Assembly (NCBI GenBank): GCA_963457665.1
Contig: OY735206.1
Span: 61,739,205 to 61,803,204 of the forward strand
Direction: 5' to 3'
DNA from: Thysanoteuthis rhombus
Lineage: Eukaryota > Mollusca > Cephalopoda > Oegopsida > Thysanoteuthidae
Length of the DNA: 64,000 nt
In this document: piece by piece, positions 5,548 through 64,000 of the stretch
Numbering within the stretch: the stretch's first letter is position 1
How the letters are laid out: each line of letters starts with the position of its first letter
Program-made: the position numbers and the translations under genes
The notes under the pieces: model-generated
Seen by the model: only the letters and a program-made list of their open reading frames with translations
Told to the model about the DNA's origin: nothing
Databases searched by the model: none

Positions 5548-6380
5548 TAAAGACTCTTTAATCTATGTAACTCTTCAGAGGCATGTACTAAAGAGAAAGT
5601 AGAAGATGGAATAATCCACATTTCAGTTATCAGATCCACTATTATAGGTACTAATACACGACAGTAAACGTGCCAGTAAAAACTGATTTCCAACACAAAG
5701 GATGAATCAAAGTTTAAAAATTTAGATTTCACTAGTTCTCATTTTTTTTGTTTCGTTTTTTTTTTTTTTCATTTGCATTCAGAAAAAATGTTTCATTTGC
5801 ATTCAGAAAAAATGTTGACATACGAGTCTTCATCATTATATTGTTTATTTTTGTTTTGTGTTCCAGTTCGTTTGTTTCCATGAATTTTTTTGGGGGGGGG
5901 GGGGATTTCCTTTATCTCCTCCTGAAAGGAAGTTGCAGTGAGAAATATGAGAAAAAGTAGCATAGCTTCCCAATAGAGTTACCAGCAACTTCTGTGCATA
6001 CCACGTTTCGGGCAGTTCTGTTTCCTTCTTTTTATGAATTGTTTTTTTTTTTTTTTTTTTCTTTTTATTCATTTTTTTTTTATCTCACAGAGCATAAACT
6101 ATTTACAAAAAGTGATGCGCATAAAATGTGGAGATGTTCGCTTTGGGATCAATTTTTATTATTTTGCATTTTTGGTCCATACGTGGGTTTTCCGCTTTGA
6201 GATATATGCCAGCAGTATACAAAAAATTGAAAACTGGTGTGAGAGGGCATGGAGAAAATTGTGGTCATTGATGTTGGATGGTTTCAAATTCTAAGGAGGA
6301 TGAGGGATTCGTGTGTTGATTTCTTTCTTCCTCTTTCTATCTTCTCACATCATGGCCATTTCGACTTGGGCCAATCAGTC
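4170..6380. other. Non-coding AT-rich DNA beyond the MEAF6 3' end
   Basis: No supported exon. Contains a 68-bp (TA)n run, a 25-bp tandem pair (CATTTGCATTCAGAAAAAATGTT, 5768-5815) and poly-T and poly-G runs. May include MEAF6 3' UTR at its high end. Confidence 0.5.
5473..5542. repeat. (TA)n microsatellite
   Basis: About 34 uninterrupted TA units. Confidence 0.95.
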
Positions 6381-6389
6381 ATCAGGCTA

Positions 6390-17748
<11,359 letters not shown>

Positions 17749-29600: not shown

Positions 29601-32600
29601 CACTAGACTCAAAACTCATGAAATATTTGAATGCAAAATAAATCCTCCTCTTCCTTCAAGATCATCAGAATATTTCTATTTCTTTTCAGTATAAAACTGA
29701 ACATGTAAATGAATGTCTCCGCAGAACAATCAGAAAATATGCTTTAACGAAGAGGCTACCACTCTCTGAGTCACTTATCAAAAATATTGAACAGACAAAC
29801 GGTTCTTTGTGTCCAATGGAACCATGTCTACCTTCTGTAAGTATTGCAACCATAATGGAGGCAAGTGGGGGGCTTGCTTTTTTTTTATGCTGGCAACTTT
29901 TTATGTGATCAATATTGATATGGATTGGATAATTTTTTTTTGTCTGGTCCAAATCCTGAGAGAAAGAATCTCTGAATTGTCAATACTCCTGATAACAAAA
30001 AGAAAAAAGCAGATTTTCATTTTTCTAATCAGTTCATTTTATCAATCTCTAAATGCTGTTTAGTTAATACATTGTACCCTAAAAGTGCATTAATATGCAA
30101 ATCACATCAAATTATTCGATGATAAATTATTAATCATAATTCAAATTTTCTCATCTAAATAATCATTTTGAGACTCTGCTTTGTGAATTGGTTCAGGTCA
30201 ATTGAATTAAAGATGGTTCAACTCCCACCATTTTTTTTATTTTGATCTATTTTTTAATGCATACTCATTACCAATGGATTAAATCCTATCATTAGAAACA
30301 AGATAAACCAAAAGATTTATTTAGCACAAATTGTATCAATCGATTTTATTCTTAAAACTGATTCCTATTAAGGACACAATATATCTATGGGTTCATTGTC
30401 CTTAAATTTCTTAAAGCTGTTTACTATCCATAAAACTTCTACTGATTACATAAGCAGACATTTTACTAAAAAAGATGAAAATGTAGACGTGCACAAAATT
30501 GATATTCTCAAAAGTCATTTTGTGCCAGATAATTTGGAAACTAATACAGTAAACCCTTGCTATGACGAATTTCAGCTTCAACGAACACGTGGACCTTAAC
30601 AAACTTTCTTATTTACTGAATGAACTTTGATAAATGCAGCCAACACGTGGGCCTTAAAAAATTGAGCATAATTCCATCCTTTTGCAACCTTGAGATCAAG
30701 ATCAAAGTGTAGTATCTGTTCTATTGCATCAACAAAACATCACCTCCTATTTTTAACTTTACACATTATCATGGTTGTATTTTAGTTATTTTTTTTTCAT
30801 GAATTTTAATTTAATTTTGATACTGTTTCAATAGAGAGAAAAAGTTGTTATGGATCTGTCGTCACTGAAAACCATATGACTTAGCTTAGCATTCCAATTT
30901 TTAAGTTTACTTCACTCACATTTTACATTGTGAAAAAGTCAAGTAATTTGATTTCACTAACTCATTTTAACTTATAACTTTTTGTAACTCTTTTTTAACT
31001 TATTGATTATTAATGAATTTTGCATTAGAATGAATTGTTTTGTATTTGTGTAATTGAATTATTTTGTGTCTTGTACGTAGATTATTGTTTTATAAATTTA
31101 AAAAGAAACATTCAAGAAAATGATTAAAATAAAACCATGGTATGTTGTTTTTGTGAATTGAAAAAAAAATTCAAATTGAATTAAATTGAAATTTATGCAG
31201 AAAACAATTAAAATGCAACTATGATAATATTTGAAATTGAAAACAAGAAGTTGATGTTGTGTTTCATTGACATGAGGAAAACAGATACTACACTGATCTT
31301 GAACTAAATACCGTAAAAGAGTGGATCACAAAACCAAGATAGGGCCACAAACTTTTTTTATTATTTACAGAACAATATAAGGTCAAAATTAGAACAATGG
31401 GCAACCGAAATGAATTCTTGGTTACTGAACACAAAACAACCATCAGGTAGAATTAACTTCCAATACCCCTTTCCATTATTTGTTTTAGTAAGGGTTTACT
31501 TTACTCTGTATTTCATATTTTCCCGCTCATAAGAATGGTTTTTAAGTTCTTTTGTTTTTTGTCTGTTTTTTTCAGCCTGTTATTGATGGCTACCGTGGAA
31601 AAGATGAAGTTATTGTTGGACGTGGCCTGGATGGAGATCCTAGAACTGTGGGGCTAACTGTTGGCAAAGGTTTGTTCATCTGTTTCTAGAATCTCTCAAA
31701 AGAATGAATGCAAGTCAGTTTTTATTTGAATACCTTAAGGGAGGGAAACCAATTGTAAAAGATTTTGTCTCAAGGATATGCGATTCACATTCAGACAAAA
31801 TCCTCCATCAAAGGACAAAGAACCCAAAATTACACCATTTTCCTTCTGCTGAACTTTGGTCTGCTTGATGATCTAACTTCAATCGATGAAGTCTCTATAT
31901 GAATGTATGCACTGTGATAACTCAACCACTGGCCATTGTATCAAGTTGAAATTTAACAGATATATTTTTTTCAATACAGTCGGTGTTGTAGTGTTCAGTT
32001 TGAAGTTGATTGGTTCTTGAGAAATCTAATGCACAGGGATTGCTGAACAACTGGCCATTGTACAAAGTTTACATTCACCAGATATATTTGTCAGCTAACC
32101 AGACATTACCGTGGCGAGTTTAAAGTTGTTTGGTTCATGAGAAATCTAATGAAAATGAATTTTTTAGATTTCAGATAATAGAACTTTTATCTAAAATTAT
32201 AGATCTAAATTTAGATATAAAATATCTAATTTGGCAACACTGAAAGAAAGTAACCGAAATACTTCAAAGCCATGTACAATGGACGAAAAATCATTTTACC
32301 TGACTGTTATAGCAGGCTGGTCCCTTCCGAATATGCACTTTGAAATTGATACTGCTCTATTTAATTGAAAAGCTGATTTTATGAAAGTTTCTCCTTTCAC
32401 TATGTGCGCTTCTATCTGTTATGCTGGATTGTTTCTTAGCAATGCATTAATTAAATTCTAACCTTTGCATTTTCTTACATACTTAAAGAAGGAGCCTAAT
32501 TTGATCTGTTTATCTTCCAGGTTCCAATTCTTTCTGTGTCCCTGTTACATATTTGTCAAATATCTGCAAAAAACACAAAGAAATTTCCAAAGTAAGTACA

Positions 32601-34398
32601 AAAATATCATTTTATATGGATGTCACTTGACAGACATCACTACCTGTTTGGATTTATTACAAGCACACTAATAGCTACTGTTTGGAGGCTAAAACTCTTT
32701 TTTTTTGTATACAAAATACTAAAACCAATTTAAATGACTGCAATTATTGACTTGACCTGTTTTTATCTTGTTTGTTATTCTTTGAGATTATTTCAACTTC
32801 TCCATGCTTTTTTATTATTATTCTAGGTCTTTCAAGAATTTATAAGATCAAGCAAATTTGAACCATACACCTTACACCCTAGCGATTCTGATGATCATCC
32901 TTATCATACTTCTGGTCACTGGCGCCTGATCTGCACAAGAACTACTTCTTCTGATGAGTCATTGTCCTATGTCATATTCCATCCTCGAAGAGAATCCCAG
33001 GTGAACTACTGCAATTTATACAACTTGTGTAATAATGATTTCATGAGAGTGACCCTACCGGAGATAGTGGGAAAGACTTGACCAACATGTATGCATCCAA
33101 TCTTAAACTAAATAATCAGCACATTTATGAAATTTTGAAGACATTTATTGAAACGTCTTTGAATTTCGTAAATATGTAAAATAGAGAATTATAACTTTTA
33201 AAATCTTTTACTATTTATCAGGTCATCTCATTTAATATCCAGGATCTGATAGCGATTGATTGAATGATATTTTTTTACTTTCCTAAAAAGCCTAAATGAT
33301 GATATATGCTAGTACATATTTAAACAAGTGAGTCATATTGTCGCTGTACGATTTAACTTAGTTACTTACTTGACCCACCTGAAAATAGACATGTGTATAG
33401 GGCATATAAGACAGTTAATGCTGTATAAAGTTAGAAAAGGAAATAATGCCTCAGAAGCAACCAAAAATATTCATAATGTTTATAGGATGGATTCTTTATA
33501 CAAAAAAATTGCTAAAGATGGTTTGAAAAGGTTTAGAAAAGGGAGTTTCAGCTTAGAGATGCACCATAAACAATTTGACCCGTTGAGTTCACTGATGACC
33601 TTGCCATCTACCTTATCTCAGAGACAGCAAGATTTATTGGACTAGATGACTTCCTACAATGTAATAATGTCTAATTCTGATGCTCACGTGAAGACTTTTC
33701 CCACAACATAGGTGATCATGGGTATTCTGACTGGTTTAATATACAGCTACATGGATTGATATATTGTATTGTGTCACATTCCTTCCCTCACTTTGATTAA
33801 AGCTATCTGTAATTCATGCTACTGTAGCCTTTACTGTATGTTGTGCTTGGCAGAAAAGCCTCCATTCATCAATGAGTATTGGCCACCCAATGACGTGTCT
33901 CCTCCTCAGACCACTGCCAATCCGTACTCAACACAACCAAACATGAGTACTCTACTAATTGTGCTGTTTAGGAAATGGCCGTAACAATTTGGCTTCTATC
34001 AAAGTCAATAAAATCTTGCTTTTGCCCATAGTCTATCTGTCATGTGTGTATGTATGTATGTATGTATATATATAATTATAAGCATACATAGTTGAAAATA
34101 ACTGACAAACTCTGTCTGATTTTTTTTTGTTAATTTTTCTAGTTTGGTTACATCAAAATTTTTTTAAAAACATTACAAAGTTGGTGGTTTAAGATCTTTC
34201 AACCATGATTAGTCATTATCAAGAAAGTGTGATAGTGTTATTTAAAGTGTAATTAGTGTTATTTTCAGAACATCTTTGAAAAAATCTTTGATGACATTAA
34301 TAAATGATTTTTATACAACCTAGAAAAATTCAACAAAAAAATTTGAGTTCGTCTGTTTTTTTTACAATGTATGCTTGAATGAATGATTGCTGCCTTGT

Positions 34399-37400: not shown

Positions 37401-40400
37401 AGTGATAGCTTAGACTCAGACCATTTGATTAAAATTTTAAACGAAAGTCCTTTCTAGTCATTAAGAAAATGGTGGAAATGTATATCAAAATATGAATAAA
37501 ATCATTTACATGTTTCTTTGCATTATGTTCATAATTGTTTTTTATCAATGCATTACAGGTTCAATTGGGATTGTACTAGCACCAAATGCCAAACGACTAT
37601 TTGGTGTTGAAATTATTCAAGATGCAATCAACGATGCCAAAGTAAATGCTGAGATAAATGGTCTGTAAAAGTTGTTTTTATTTAATTTATTTTCACTCCC
37701 TTTCTTTTCTTCATGGCAATACTTACCATTATTGTGAACATTTTCAAAGCTAAAATGATTTCCTTTCCATTATTTTGGAAAAAAAAAAAAAACTTGAAAA
37801 AACATGGATGCTGTACTAAAGGAGAATTTCTAATGTCACTGTTATGTTTACGAAGGTCCTCTATCACTTGGAAATCATTGAATCAACAAATCATTGTGAG
37901 GTTATCATTTCATTCAGAGTCTGCTGTTAGACTTTTATTGAAAACTACACAAACCAAATTTAAAAAAAAACGTCAGTTTCCACTTTGATTCTTTTGTATT
38001 TAAACATTGGATGACATTTTTATGATTTGATTGTGTTGTGGCTATAACTTTCAGAAGATCATTAACATTCAAAATTTAGTCTAGACAATTGAATCTCTTC
38101 TTTGCACCCTTGATGTTGTCAACACCATGTTTTGACAAATCTTTTCTTCAGTTCTTGTCTGGAATATAATCCAGGAAAGAAAAAAACCTATTTACTCCAG
38201 CTAAATTGAATAGGCTAGGAGAAAAAAGTTTGCCTCTTTTCGTGAATTATACATTTGACCAGGGCTGGAGAATAGATTAGCCAAAATGTGATGTTTACAA
38301 CATCAAGGGTACAAAAAAAGGGATTCATTAGTTGGAACAAAATTTTGAATCGTTCATAATGGATTTTATAAAACTTGAATACTTAGCAAATCTCTTCAGA
38401 ATTTTAGAAAGAGATAGAAAATAAACCACATTATTTTTTTATGATTAATCCAAAAAGGTTGTCCTTTTTCACCCATTTACACTAGTTCCATTTTCCATCA
38501 TGTTGTTTAATGTGTCTTACTTTAGAGAAAAACATATGCTCTTCCTTGTTGATTTCTGATTTCAATTTCTGTTATTATAAAACTAGTTGTTTATGTAACC
38601 TGTGATAACACAGGTAAGATTTATTGAACACATCAAAACTCAAATTTGCTGTAATGAATATATATATATAGTGTCACAGCCAATACTAAAAGTATCATAT
38701 TTAGCACGTGAACAAGTACATGAATACCTTGAATACTGCAGGTTTGGTTTAGGTGTTGCTTTACAAATTAATGTAACTAAATACAAGCTGAAAAAAATCC
38801 ACATTCAATTATAATAAGACTTTGAACAATATGGAAAATTTTGGAATGAATTAATTGCACTAATTAAGGTATGGCAGATATATGAACACAAAAAGTTGAT
38901 GATTTAATACTTGTCTATCTTTTGCTGGCTAGACATCTTATGCAAAATATTAACTAGTTAAGGTATGGCAGGTGGGTTGAAAAATGCATTTTGACCCCAT
39001 TCACTGAAGAATTTGTTATAGCCCATTTTTGGTGAGTGTTGATCTTGGTGCAAGAAAGTGAAGTTTATTCACAGGGCCATGGATGAAAAAAAAACACCAT
39101 AACAACATAAGTGCTTAAAAGTGGAATTCAGCAATGGAAATTTGCATGTGCAAGTTTCAGTACTTGATCAATATGTTGTACATTAAAAATCCCTAAGAAT
39201 GACAGCATTGTCATGGTCAGGAATTATTGAAAGTATCACAGATAGAATACACTTATCATAAGTATGATTTTTTCTATGTTTTTCTTTTTGCAACAAATTA
39301 AAAAGTAGTGTATTTAAATGTGAATTCATTTTGGTTCTCTTTTTTTTTTCCAGGTGTGACAAATGCAGACTTCATTTGTTCTAGAGCTAGTCAGGCACTC
39401 AAACAAATTTCTCTTGGAGCATATTTTGATCCCAGTGAAACTGCAGTAGCTGTGGTGAACCCGGGGCGACCTGGTGTCAGTAAGTGCCTTCTAATTCCTT
39501 TATTATACCTCACATACCAAAAGCAAGGTATCGCAGATAGTCCTATCTCTATCTGTGCTAACAGCTAACTCAAAAACAGTCTGAGAGTGATAAAATCAAG
39601 CTGATGAGTTCATTGTGTAAATATCCGAAATTGCCTTCTAATTCCTTTATTATACCTCACATACCAAAAGCAAGGTATCGCAGATAGTCCTATCTCTATC
39701 TGTGCTAACAGCTAACTCAAAAACAGTCTGATAGTGATAAAATCAAGCTGATGAGTTCATTGCATAAATATCCGAAATTGATTAGATTCAGGGAATTTCT
39801 TGCCATCTTTATTTTTATTGATGCATTGGTGTTTTTATCAAACAAATCTGGTGTAATTTTCTTCATCACTTTTTGTTATAGAGTATAATGCACTAAAAAG
39901 ACATTTCTAGGTATGATTACAGCTATAATAGTTTGTAAGGGACATTTAATTTCTAATGAATTCCAAAAATTCTGCATGAAGAATAACAAAAAATAGATAA
40001 ACACTCACTTTGGCTCGTTATCACAAAATTTCAAATTAATTGGATTAGTTCTCAATTCTCACCAAGATAGTCAAAGTAATAGTTGATAAAATGTATTTTT
40101 TCATGTAGAAACAATAAGCTGTTTATATATTTTGATGGAGTACTCAGTACAACAGCTCCACTGAGCATTTCTAAACTTGTCTTTTACAAGTAGTTTAAGT
40201 AGCCAACTTGGGCTAAACAGTGGTAGTTATGGCTTCTTGCCTTCAAGAAAACATTTGTAGATATATTGTGGCTGTTTAGATTTAGACAAAGACAGACACA
40301 ATCTTTAATTGGCATAAAATGGTGTTTCAAGAAATTCATGTCTTTATTTCAGATTCTGGATCATCGTTAGAGCTAACTTCATAACTTGTTTGTATTTCTC

Positions 40401-60174: not shown

Positions 60175-60737
60175 CCAACACAATTATAACTTGCAGTTGT
60201 CCATACTACACTGTTATCATTTTGGCTGATGCCTTTTGACTGGCCACCACCCCTGACTACTCTGTTGGTGCTATGGGTATGTGAAAAAAAAATAATAGGT
60301 TGAATATGCATTTTTTTGCTGAGGCCCAGGGCATTATACTTGGGAGATAACCGAACACAATGTATGTACATAATGACTAGCTACCAGTAAAGTGCACTAT
60401 TTTGTCTAAAAATGAGGTTCCATGCAGATTTAGAAATTCAAAATAATGTCTATAGCTGGAAAAAACTTTTTTGTCTCTTATTGACTGAATGGAATCTACC
60501 TCTGTGATTTTTAACACCTATGTAAATGAAGCCTGCCTTAGATATCAAGGCCCATTCTCCCAAGTTTTATTGAATTTCCATCCTTGAAAAATGAAGTGGA
60601 AAGTCAATATGAATTACAAAGGTATAGGAAAATCAGCTTTTAGTGTAATAATTATTACTGCTAGCTGATGTCAGCTCATACACGTGATGTTACAGCCGCA
60701 ACATGACAGCATGGGTCACATCGCACTGTAATTCTCT

Positions 60738-61130
60738 TCTTGGCCTCTTGGCTAAGATCGAATTGTAGTATCTGTTCTTTGTCGCACTTGGGCTGTGAAG
60801 TTGATCATTGTCCAAGATTGTCCCCCATCCTGGAATTACTGACCAGCATGCTGAGGCTCATCCTGAGAGCATCAACAGGATTCAAAACTCTGCAAAATCA
60901 TGTGTTGAGACTCAGGGACTCTTGCACTACAGGATTTGTCTTGTGAAAATATTCCAGCCTGTACCAACATCCTTGCAAAATCATGCAAAAAAACTCTGGT
61001 TCATTGCACCCTGTGCCCTCGCATTTTCAAATGTGTCGGACCCCACCATAATTCGACTTTGCGTCAGATTTGTAGTCATAGACATGCAAATAAATAAACT
61101 TGGCCTTTTGGCCAAGATCAAAGTGTAGTA
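60738..61130 (+). repeat. U2-headed tandem repeat, unit 1
   Basis: Head: TCTTGGCCTCTTGGCTAAGA then TTGTAGTATCTGTTCTT, the U2 snRNA 5' region (stem I and branch-site recognition GTAGTA). A non-U2 body follows (TGATCATTGTCCAAGATTG, GACCAGCATGC), then a tail (GGACTCTTGCACTACAGGAT, TCATTGCACCCTGTGCC) ending CATGCAAATAAATAAACTTG. The next U2 head begins at 61098, so the period is about 360 bp. Confidence 0.8.
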
Positions 61131-61162
61131 TTGGACCATATCAGCTTAATATCAGATACGCT
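61098..61162 (+). pseudogene. U2 snRNA 5' segment fused to the Tx1-like LINE
   Basis: TTGGCCTTTTGGCCAAGATC, AAAGTGTAGTAT, then TATCAGCTTAATATCAGATA and CG follow U2 for about 60 nt, further than the other heads, which leave U2 after TCTGTTCTT. GATCAAAGTG carries one A more than canonical U2 (GATCAAGTG). Sm site and 3' stem-loops are missing, so it is not a functional snRNA gene. Confidence 0.8.
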
Positions 61163-63120
61163 TCATTTCATCAGGAAATATGAGTCCTGATGTTGGGGAA
61201 AGCCAAATGTCCCTGAGCCAGCCACAGTGACCAGCCTTCTGGCTGGTCAGGGCTGAAGCTCAGACATTAAGCAAGCTAATGCTCTGGAGTCATCTGAGTT
61301 GACCAGCCCTCAGTCTGGTCTAGGCTAAAGCTAGACAAACAAGGAAAGCAGAAGACCCTGTCCCATAGACTAGGCGGTGGGCTGGACTAGGCTGAAGTGT
61401 TTCCTGAACGCAAGGGTCCAACATTGTTAATGCTGGCACGATAGGTAGATTGATCAAAGCTAATGTTGCTGTGGACCGAAGCGACTAGGTTTAATGGGAG
61501 ATTGGAATGCCATCCTTGACCCCAAAATAGACAAGGGTGAGAAGGGAGCTAGCAGGCTGGCAGAGTGTGAATGCAGTCTAATTGACCTGGTTACAGAACA
61601 CTACCTGGTCGAAAGATATCATGGAAACAACCAAGGCAGAAGATGTGGATGTGGACTCCTAGTATGTCTTCTATACAGGACAAAAGCTACCTGGATAGAA
61701 TATTAGTAAGAAAAGTCGATGTAGATTTTTTAACTTGTCCCACATACTACTGGCGAGGGCATTCAAACCACAAATTGGTGATGGCTCAGTTGCAGTTAGG
61801 GGATAGGCCTAGTCTAGCTAGTTACTGAAAGTTCAATTCTTCCTTACTGGAGAAAGGACTTCTGGGAACATCTGAAGAGGTTAGTCTAGCAAGAATTAGT
61901 GGGGATGGTTACAGGCAATAAGTGGTGGTACAACCTGAAAAATAAGATTAGAATGTTTACTGTCAACGAATCTCTATGAGACTCTCAATTCAAGAAAAAA
62001 TCAAGCGAAGAATCACACTAGGATGGCATGCCTTTGGCAGAGCAAGCTCAACCTTAAAAAATAAGAAAATCCTATTGATCCTAAAGAGAAAGGTGTATAA
62101 CCAATGTATCCTCCTAATAGTCACTTTTGGAGCTGAAACATGGAAACTACCCAAGAGACAGATCTGCAGATTGAGAATCATGCAACGTGCACATGAAAAT
62201 TATTCTGGGCTTCACATGGAGAGACCACAAGACAGCACAGTACATCCGGAAAGAGACAGGAGTCAGGGACATCATAGAATCCATTAAAAATCTCAAATGG
62301 CAGTGGGCTGGCCATGTTGCAAGAATGACAGACAACCGATGGACATCGCGACTCACAACATGGATCCCCCGAGATCACCAGCAGAATATTAGATGGAGAG
62401 ACGAGCTTGACAAATTCAGAAAGTATTGGCTCTGTGACACCCATGATAGAGAAGTGTGGCAAATCCTGAGGAAGGTCTATGTCTAATGACGGATGTTAAA
62501 AGACTGATGATGATAGCCAACAACTCACACTAGATAAGGCTAAGAGGAAAGTGTTGTTGGACGATAAACTTACCTGGGCATTAGCAGGAGAAGACCCCCT
62601 AACTATAGAACTAGCTAAGAGGGACCTACCGCAATTGGTTAGTGAGTGCTACCAGGGTCAAGTAGTTCGGGCTAGGTTAGAGAGAGTATCCAATTGAGCA
62701 GAAGGAAGAGATGCAACAATGGCCCAATTGTTATATTCATTATATCAAGACCCCATACGGGTGAACCTTCCAACCGACACATGACATCTGCTAGGGGTTC
62801 TGGTAGCACCTCCAGGAGCGCTTCACCAAGAGGCCTGGCCTGTGTGAGCAGGAGTTTTGCAGCTATTTGGCTGACTTTCCCCGACTTGGTTTGGCTGAAG
62901 TGGCTCGCTGCGAGGGCGGATCACAGACTGCAAGATCCACACTTCGCTGATGCAGGTTGGCAGTAACATGTCGCCAAGGCTGGATAGTCTGCCCTTTGAA
63001 CTGTATTTAAGGATGTTGCACATGTTTGTATCCCACTTAGCAGTAATGTTTAACCACTGGTTTGACCAGGGAGCAATCCCAGGCCAGATGTTCTTGTCTG
63101 AGAAACCGCCCCACTTAATG
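61163..63120 (+). mobile_element. Tx1-clade-like non-LTR retrotransposon, broken
   Basis: Frames read MGDWNAILDPKIDKG and ECSLIDLVTEHYLV (61494 on), from an AP-type endonuclease. Then come KSYLDRILVRKVDVDFLTCP and NHKLVMAQLQLGDRPSLASY (61683 on), then, after an insertion, LDKAKRKVLLDDKLTWALAG and ELAKRDLPQLVSECYQGQVV (62527 on). Last are PRLDSLPFELYLRMLHMFVS and FNHWFDQGAIPG (62973 on), the start of the reverse transcriptase. The rest of RT is missing. Stops and frameshifts throughout. The clade is judged from remembered Tx1 protein text. Confidence 0.75.
61970..62512 (+). mobile_element. LINE 3' end nested inside the Tx1-like element
   Basis: Reads ITLGWHAFGRASSTLKNKKI, VYNQCILLIVTFGAETWKL, KWQWAGHVARMTDNRWTS and RWRDELDKFRKYW, ending KVYV-stop and GACTGATGATGAT. 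This is the typical C terminus of RTE/jockey-like LINEs (W.GHVARM.D.RW). The flanking Tx1-like frame stops at IRMFTVN and resumes at QQLTLDKAKRK, so this is a later insertion with its TGATGAT tail at the junction. Confidence 0.82.
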
Positions 63121-63469
63121 TAAAGATCTTTTGGCCAGAAGAATGAATGTAGCACTAAGCCGAGCTTCAGTTAGTTATGCCTTTTTTTCAAGAAAAGAAA
63201 AAAAAGAAAAATGAGGATATTTCAAACAAGATTAACCCCACAGAGTAAATGAGACTTTTTGGTAAATGAACGGAACAGAAGAGAAGAACATGATTTTATG
63301 GTGACAGGACATAATAAGTATGAATAGGTCACAAAAAAATTTAGTGAAGAGTAAGATAGACAATGAAGACCACACCTCACCCCTACCCCACAAATTGGTC
63401 TTAGTGCCCAAGTTTTTGCATTTTTTATGAATAAAAAAACCTAAAAAATTGGCATTTTTGCACAAAGAC

Positions 63470-64000
63470 ATGGGGACTCTTGCTCTACAGGATTCATCCT
63501 GTGACTAAAGTCCAGCTTGTCATGACGTCCTCACAAAATCATGCATAAGGAGTCAGATTCATTGCACCCTATGCCTGCACATTTTCAAACATGTGGGACT
63601 CCATTTTAATCCAACTACATGTTGTATTTGTAGTTGTAAAAAAGCAAATAAATGAACTCTGCCTTTTGATCAAGATCAAAGTGTGGTATCTGTTCTTTAA
63701 CGCCCTTGGGCTGAGAAGTTGATCATTGTCCAGGATTGTTCCCCATCCCAGAATCACTGACCAGCATGCCCAGGCTCATCCAGTAGCATCAAAAGGATTT
63801 GTCTTGTGAACCAAGTCAAGCCTGCCCTAATAACTTTGTGAAATCATGCACGAGAACTTGGGGACTCTTACACTACAGAATTCGTTCTGTGAATTAAGTC
63901 AAGCTTGTTAAAATAATGTGCAAGGAGTCGGGTTCTCTTGCACCCTGTGCCTACACGTTCTCAAACATGCTGAACCCCCACCTTAATCCCAACTTTGTCA
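63470..64000 (+). repeat. U2-headed tandem repeat, further units
   Basis: Tail block (GGACTCTTGCTCTACAGGAT) from 63472, U2 head GCCTTTTGATCAAGATCAAA then GTGTGGTATCTGTTCTT from 63661, body TGATCATTGTCCAGGATTG and GACCAGCATGCC, then the next tail from 63857 (ACTCTTACACTACAGAATTC). Tail-to-tail distance is about 385 bp. The array runs off the window. Confidence 0.8.

Follow-up and report, generated by a model that had tools for sequence, protein, structure and literature searches.

Probable remains of a self-targeting array of U2-headed L1/Tx1-like retroelements in Thysanoteuthis rhombus

The locus described here is very probably a decayed array of self-targeting, U2-headed L1/Tx1-like retroelements, in which a LINE and three copies of a SINE follow each other in the order SINE A, LINE, SINE B, SINE C. 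It lies within a 64,000-nt stretch of Thysanoteuthis rhombus DNA, referred to as the window, on contig C9 of the host assembly (2.73 Gb, 514 contigs); unlabelled positions are those of the window. There is no detectable U2 gene at the site. Related LINEs and SINEs elsewhere in the genome carry the 5' end of U2 snRNA as a head of their own and join U2 at recurrent positions, and it is these copies that carry the argument.

U2-derived sequence and order of the array

A blastn comparison of a typed U2 sequence (nt 1-70) with the window placed U2 nt 8-68 at 61099-61160 (E = 1.4e-13, 64.4 bits); in the reversed window, used as a control, matches reached at most 24.7 bits. In a permissive search, the same stretch scored 38.6 bits with Rfam RF00004 (E = 3.2e-4), which is under the gathering score of 46, and at the gathering threshold the whole window gave zero Rfam matches. 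Aligned to the host U2 gene, 61099-61160 corresponds to nt 8-69 with 87% identity, where host numbering runs one ahead of typed, human-type U2 past approximately nt 29 owing to a single additional A. An 8-nt block of this head, at typed U2 nt 40-47 (CTGTTCTT), is replaced. The first-pass annotation had described a relic LINE joined directly and in the same orientation to U2 sequence, with a longer U2 match than in the neighbouring U2-headed repeats, and both observations held: the head is followed by LINE sequence from 61161 to ~63449 and reaches nt 69, whereas U2 in the neighbouring repeats (60733-60779 and 63657-63697) ends at nt 47-48.

All parts of the array lie on the + strand. SINE copy A starts with a U2-derived head at 60733-60779 (U2 nt 2-48; blastn E = 6e-12 for typed U2 nt 2-47, 89% identity to host U2 nt 2-48, 42.4 bits with Rfam) and continues with its body and AATAAATAAA tail at 60780-61098, the tail meeting the LINE's head at U2 nt 8. 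The 5' part of the LINE (61161-61475) includes, at 61208-61266, the ORF1 start of an intact relative termed K; next comes part of the ORF2 region for the APE-type endonuclease (61476-61966, 81% nucleotide identity to the intact K copy L041). A 3' fragment of another LINE, which I take to be RTE-type and not Tx1, then occupies 61967-62512 inside the relic and breaks the collinear match at K 3075/3078. ORF2 resumes at 62513-63090, leading into the reverse transcriptase (76% nucleotide identity to K; the protein encoded by 62518-62694 is 71% identical to ORF2 copies at a U2 array), and the extreme C-terminus of ORF2 with the start of the 3'UTR (63073-63173, 72% to K 5634-5732) precedes the remaining 3'UTR and 3' end (63217-63449, 76% to K 5965-6187, K's last bases before U2). 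At the 3' junction, 63450-63472 may be a weak remnant of a U2 head (TTGGCATTTTTGCAC..), which random stretches equalled in 21 of 5000 trials against the LINE's own head and in 277 of 5000 against canonical U2. The 3' half of SINE copy B (63473-63653) is 74% identical to 60915-61095, and SINE copy C has a U2-derived head at 63657-63697 (nt 8-48, from blastn and host U2) and a body at 63698-64000 that extends ~35 bp beyond the window end.

The outer flanks of the array show no significant target site duplication (TSD), with 1408 of 5000 random pairs being as good, and no U2 upstream sequence was found before the array in a comparison with four U2 upstream stretches. I read the array as an old, dispersed one and not as a U2 gene.

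The relic LINE and its intact relative

The coding pieces of the relic are frames with stops. K, as represented by L041, aligns collinearly by blastn at 61208-61266, 61476-61966, 62513-63090, 63073-63173, and 63217-63445, and the relic therefore reaches both element ends, with large internal deletions; in this comparison with the intact host LINE, the relic showed no match to the C-terminal half of ORF2 or to the greater part of ORF1. The annotation had placed the element at 61098-63120, where a LINE is indeed found, but the 3'UTR match puts its end near 63449, and the RTE-type interior has to be subtracted. Pfam gave nothing useful on the short relic pieces, and plasmid and viral collections held no relatives. 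A second copy of the RTE-type 3' end lies close by at 59329-59092 (-), matching 62005-62510 (+) with 76.5% identity over 247 columns.

A 59-aa piece of the relic ORF2 gave 150 matches in the host genome. After the relic itself, the top matches were five copies with 71% identity and 1163-aa frames free of stops, of which three lie inside the listed U2 gene array on C36 and two further along the same contig; one of these two (L049) is followed at its 3' end by a U2 gene. Besides the C36 tandem array of ~2-kb units, U2 genes are present on C42, C35, and C44, a count that is a lower bound because 46 of 185796 candidates were scored. The C36 array (L096-L098) holds many K elements and variant U2 genes (CCTCTTGG for CCTTTTGG, ATAGG for ATACG).

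K is the closest relative of the relic, and its intact two-ORF copies sit in the U2 gene array and begin at U2 nt 1. Its ORFs comprise 682 codons (stop to stop) and 1163 aa. In Pfam, the ORF2 of the intact relative matched Exo_endo_phos (E = 5.5e-11), RVT_1 (E = 1.9e-33), and zf-RVT, and its top PDB match was L1 ORF2p (E = 2.7e-67, residues 6-861), which places it in the L1 superfamily. ORF1 has no Pfam match and contains a CCHC knuckle (CWSCRKQGHIARVC), a feature taken to define the Tx1 clade, to which this LINE presumably belongs. The earlier assignment to an L1/Tx1-like, U2-targeting group of LINEs is thus supported, with the nearest relatives at a U2 gene array.

The LINE carries its U2 head

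Two dispersed relatives show to which side of the junction the U2 sequence belongs. On C27, a LINE of a second type (U-type), whose ORF2 frame runs for 1160 aa without stops, is laid out as a 17-nt duplication, U2 7-48, the LINE, its tail GGATAAATAAA, and the same 17 nt again. On C47, an exact 15-nt TSD encloses U2 19-48 and the LINE (17-48 if an ambiguous TT is assigned to the head). Both duplications are non-U2 sequence with the U2 head inside, and the U2 sequence therefore belongs to the element. The flanks of a third dispersed, headed copy (C27:53.9M) have only 5 nt in common.

The same two copies weigh against the idea that each insertion, through nicks staggered by ~48-69 nt, creates U2 1-48/69 as a long TSD, the element itself being without U2. 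Such staggered nicks would account for U2 on both sides of an element, as at the K copy in L041, and for the renewal of sites, but they are at odds with U2 lying inside 15-17-nt duplications of non-U2 sequence, and where elements entered U2 genes the duplications measure ~7 and ~15 nt. L001 is a 5'-truncated insertion before a U2 gene with a duplication of only ~7 nt relative to the empty paralogue L002, and in L066 a truncated copy is preceded by U2 1-15, which I read as its duplication; because truncated insertions show such short duplications, U2 1-48 is not a long TSD. Furthermore, the heads contain family-specific bases that are absent from the target: K heads on C36, C22, and C10 have derived bases in common (GCGTAATACC), unlike the U2 target (GCTTAATATC). 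I consider long duplications extremely improbable as the source of the heads.

A detectable U2 head was present at 28 of 40 LINE 5' starts (16 of 21 for K-type, the window included, and 12 of 19 for other types), although these are not all independent insertions, as copies inside arrays are included and many C36 copies are array duplicates. Five fetched stretches had no 5' start (L056, L060, L064, L070, and L074), and a rearranged K fragment in L042/L095 was kept outside the count. One of the 28, L072, retains only U2 4-25, joined to the inner 5'UTR. The 12 starts lacking a detectable head are truncated, rearranged, or down to 8-10 nt of it: L122, L123, L125, L127, and L128; L076, L082, L134, L137, and L138, which begin just past the head and apparently represent one duplicated lineage; and L080 and L130, in which 8-10 nt are left. 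In seven cases, the sequence immediately before the head is not U2, SINE, or LINE (L058, L062, L068, L072, L078, L120, and L136). The annotation had named, as the observation that would speak against it, full-length copies that lie at unrelated sites and lack U2 at the 5' junction, and a partial test gave a divided answer, with these seven copies keeping the head and 12 of the 40 starts being without one.

The U2 head is thus carried by the element and is common to several families. The annotation had offered a U2-LINE chimera produced by template switching as one of its two explanations, and it counts in favour of this that LINE machinery is known to generate U2 pseudogenes and U-RNA fusions. 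The head was found in several LINE types and in two U2-headed SINE types on several chromosomes, and a one-off event is excluded because the head is common to several families on several chromosomes; of all readings considered, this one is the least probable. Template switching is nevertheless a good origin for the first heads.

Where the elements meet U2

Upstream of U2 nt 1, three empty and four K-bearing units on C36 and one K copy on C22 differ little over 120 bp, and at U2 nt 1 the K-bearing units change to the element's own head. The preference is for the 5' part of U2, and the position is directly behind the U2 upstream sequence.

On the 3' side, 15 of 21 informative K ends were joined to U2, leading into a U2 gene, another K, or a SINE, while six were not (L089, L091, L092, L095, L125, and L127); L090 was uninformative and the window was left out of this tally. 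In all 15, U2 starts at nt 9, or at nt 11-24 in eroded heads, and in none at nt 39. The 3' ends of the K copies in the C36 array meet U2 at nt 8-9, and U-type ends meet it at nt 1, with six exact junctions of a U-type tail and U2 nt 1 genome-wide and 0 in a reversed-pattern control. Zero-mismatch U-type 17-mer tails were followed by ATC in 18 of 20 cases and by U2 in five, several of them being segmental duplicates, and tails at one mismatch were mostly chance (177 in total, 128 in the control). A strict nt-1 rule is contradicted by three duplicate tails on C12 and one tail on C43 (L071), which run into ATCTGTTC or GTCTGTTC and then into the body of a second U2-headed SINE, inside whose head they lie no more than 1 nt from the Keno/Utopia site. 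This second U2-headed repeat (L069, L071, and L084) has U2 to ~nt 45 and then CACGGCAGAGCC. U-type LINEs on C27, C12, and C43 (L058/L059; L076, L082, L134, L137, and L138) lie in copies of one repeat (ATCATACTTT.AAGGATCATTTC), which is possibly a second preferred target of theirs.

These junctions bear on the first explanation given by the annotation, namely that of a Keno-type element inserted into a U2 gene, with the U2 on its 5' side being the target gene. According to PMC4640811, the U2 site of Keno and Utopia is nt 38/39, with the 3' flank starting at nt 39. The L1/Tx1-like ORF2, the nearest relatives at U2 arrays, and the few U-type tails that meet U2 near nt 39 inside SINE heads all agree with such an element. 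The U2 sequence in the window, however, continues past nt 38/39 to nt 69, the 15 U2-joined K 3' ends start elsewhere, the window array is not preceded by detectable U2 upstream sequence, and for the two dispersed copies with U2 inside their TSDs the explanation is refuted. A Keno-type insertion at the window is therefore very improbable. The question of whether the U2 junction is constant among other copies, which the annotation had also raised, was answered by a reproducible junction.

SINE copies and mixed arrays

The body of the window SINE had at least 45 matches in the genome (714 candidates, 40 scored), of which 20 were fetched. A U2 head, derived from the snRNA, was present in 18 of the 20, being reduced to 12 nt in L104. 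Five of the 20 copies lie directly behind another element's tail (four SINE tails and one U-type LINE tail). Among copies with a complete tail, setting aside L100, L102, L105, and L117, the next bases were CTC or CTT in 15 of 16, like U2 nt 8-10, although these may partly belong to the tail; in L115 and L118 the duplications take in the motif. A TSD test was modest, with four of 20 pairs scoring at least 16, against 15 of 380 mismatched pairs. The junctions of SINE and LINE with U2 are the same. Genome-wide, a U2 5' 26-mer at two mismatches was found 2501 times, U2 genes included, and its reversed pattern 0 times.

LINEs and SINEs occur in mixed head-to-tail arrays, with junctions at U2 nt 1 and 8-9 and with family-specific heads. 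C10 has a U-type LINE, K, and a SINE in succession, C35 has two LINEs, a SINE, and a U2 gene, and C6, C16, and C42 have K followed by a SINE. A 5-kb stretch of C1 contains eleven U2 heads and ten complete SINE units head to tail, and two of its inner junctions (one being the higher-order copy of the other) show an additional ATC in front of ATCGC, the outcome expected from placement of a complete head behind the first bases of another.

Tandem arrays, that of the window included, could alternatively be products of recombination between U2-like stretches, by unequal crossing-over or gene conversion, and not of insertion into heads. The C1 SINE array contains a 7-unit higher-order repeat, so that unequal crossing-over also added tandem copies there, and LINE units of near-identical sequence recur at ~6.2 kb on C36 and C22. 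However, the mixed arrays on C10, C35, C6, C16, and C42 consist of different families with common U2 junctions, and insertions with short TSDs are directly visible. Recombination as the main source of the arrays is accordingly unlikely, although it is a serious contender. Tandem arrays with pieces of these LINEs are also present at C37:26.37-26.76 Mb (period ~10.25 kb) and C46:36.74-36.96 Mb (~9.5 kb).

Proposed mode of propagation and known systems

In the proposed self-targeting cycle, the LINE RNA would begin with the 5' end of U2 snRNA (nt 1 to ~69 in the window's family), which would be copied along with the element. The LINE machinery would favour U2 before nt 1 (ATCGC) and before nt 8-9 (CTCGGCC), occasionally near nt 39, and the SINE would use the same sites, presumably being mobilised by this LINE. 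Each complete insertion would supply a new U2 head and landing site, and therefore later elements would insert before earlier ones. A full-length copy at the U2 start would have the U2 promoter immediately in front of it, and this promoter, judging from the sequence arrangement, may transcribe it from nt 1 and so renew the head (promoter capture). The U2 end of the cDNA may pair with the target at 5' joining, which would leave clean joints without duplication where both are U2. Read-through or template switching may have provided the first heads, and heads were perhaps acquired several times because those of different families end at differing U2 positions (~nt 45-69). On balance, I lean towards the fuller reading of a target-carrying LINE/SINE system, whose RNA would start with U2, integrate exactly at the U2 start, be driven into the next generation by the promoter there, and sow landing pads genome-wide.

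Keno resembles the present LINE in its U2 gene target and in having an APE endonuclease and a reverse transcriptase in ORF2, as found here by Pfam in the intact relative. It differs in that the 3' junction is mainly U2 nt 1 or 8-9 here and nt 38/39 there (PMC4640811), and in that the elements described here carry the U2 5' end themselves. Utopia, an RLE-type LINE, also targets U2 and is occasionally inserted in tandem (Utopia-1_NVit), but it has another endonuclease class, its site is nt 38/39, and its 5' flank is deleted or duplicated target and not a carried head, as described in PMC4640811. In Octopus vulgaris, SINE/U and U-L1 classes are named among recently active repeats in the accessible portion of PMC13282606; the SINE/U class is similar in being U-RNA-headed, whereas that portion does not describe a junction, a LINE head, or U2 targeting. 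Within the mostly open-access literature covered (PMC4640811, PMC5753468, PMC13282606, and PMC8869645, each in its accessible part), neither a U2-headed LINE nor insertion at U2 nt 1 is described, and the novelty of a U2-headed, U2-targeting LINE is provisional.

A shortage of target copies has been raised for U2-specific LINEs (PMC4640811). Carrying the target on the element would be an answer to it, with promoter, target, and 5' end combined in one sequence. The system would represent an APE-type LINE integrating at the start of an RNA gene, and it opens to testing the idea that 5' joining is aided by homology of the RNA 5' end to the target. It may also account for the ~2500 U2 5' segments (genes included) other than as ordinary U2 pseudogenes. 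Crocodilian U1/U2-headed SINEs (SINEU; Kojima 2015) are reportedly mobilised by Tx1-like LINEs (Tx1-Mar), which are said to target the Mariner transposon and not to have been described with a U2 head; in the present case, unlike what is reported for that system, LINE and SINE both have U2 and target U2.

Other repeats in the window

Short fragments of U2 nt 23-47 occur at 30698-30722 (+), 31300-31280 (-), and 9931-9954 (+), and no adjoining LINE or SINE body was recognised; ~560 bp separate the first two, which are oppositely oriented. A frame at 33313-33645 (+) resembles what I take to be the N-terminus of a mariner-type transposase, and 39485-39780 consists of two repeats of a 147-bp unit with 97% identity.
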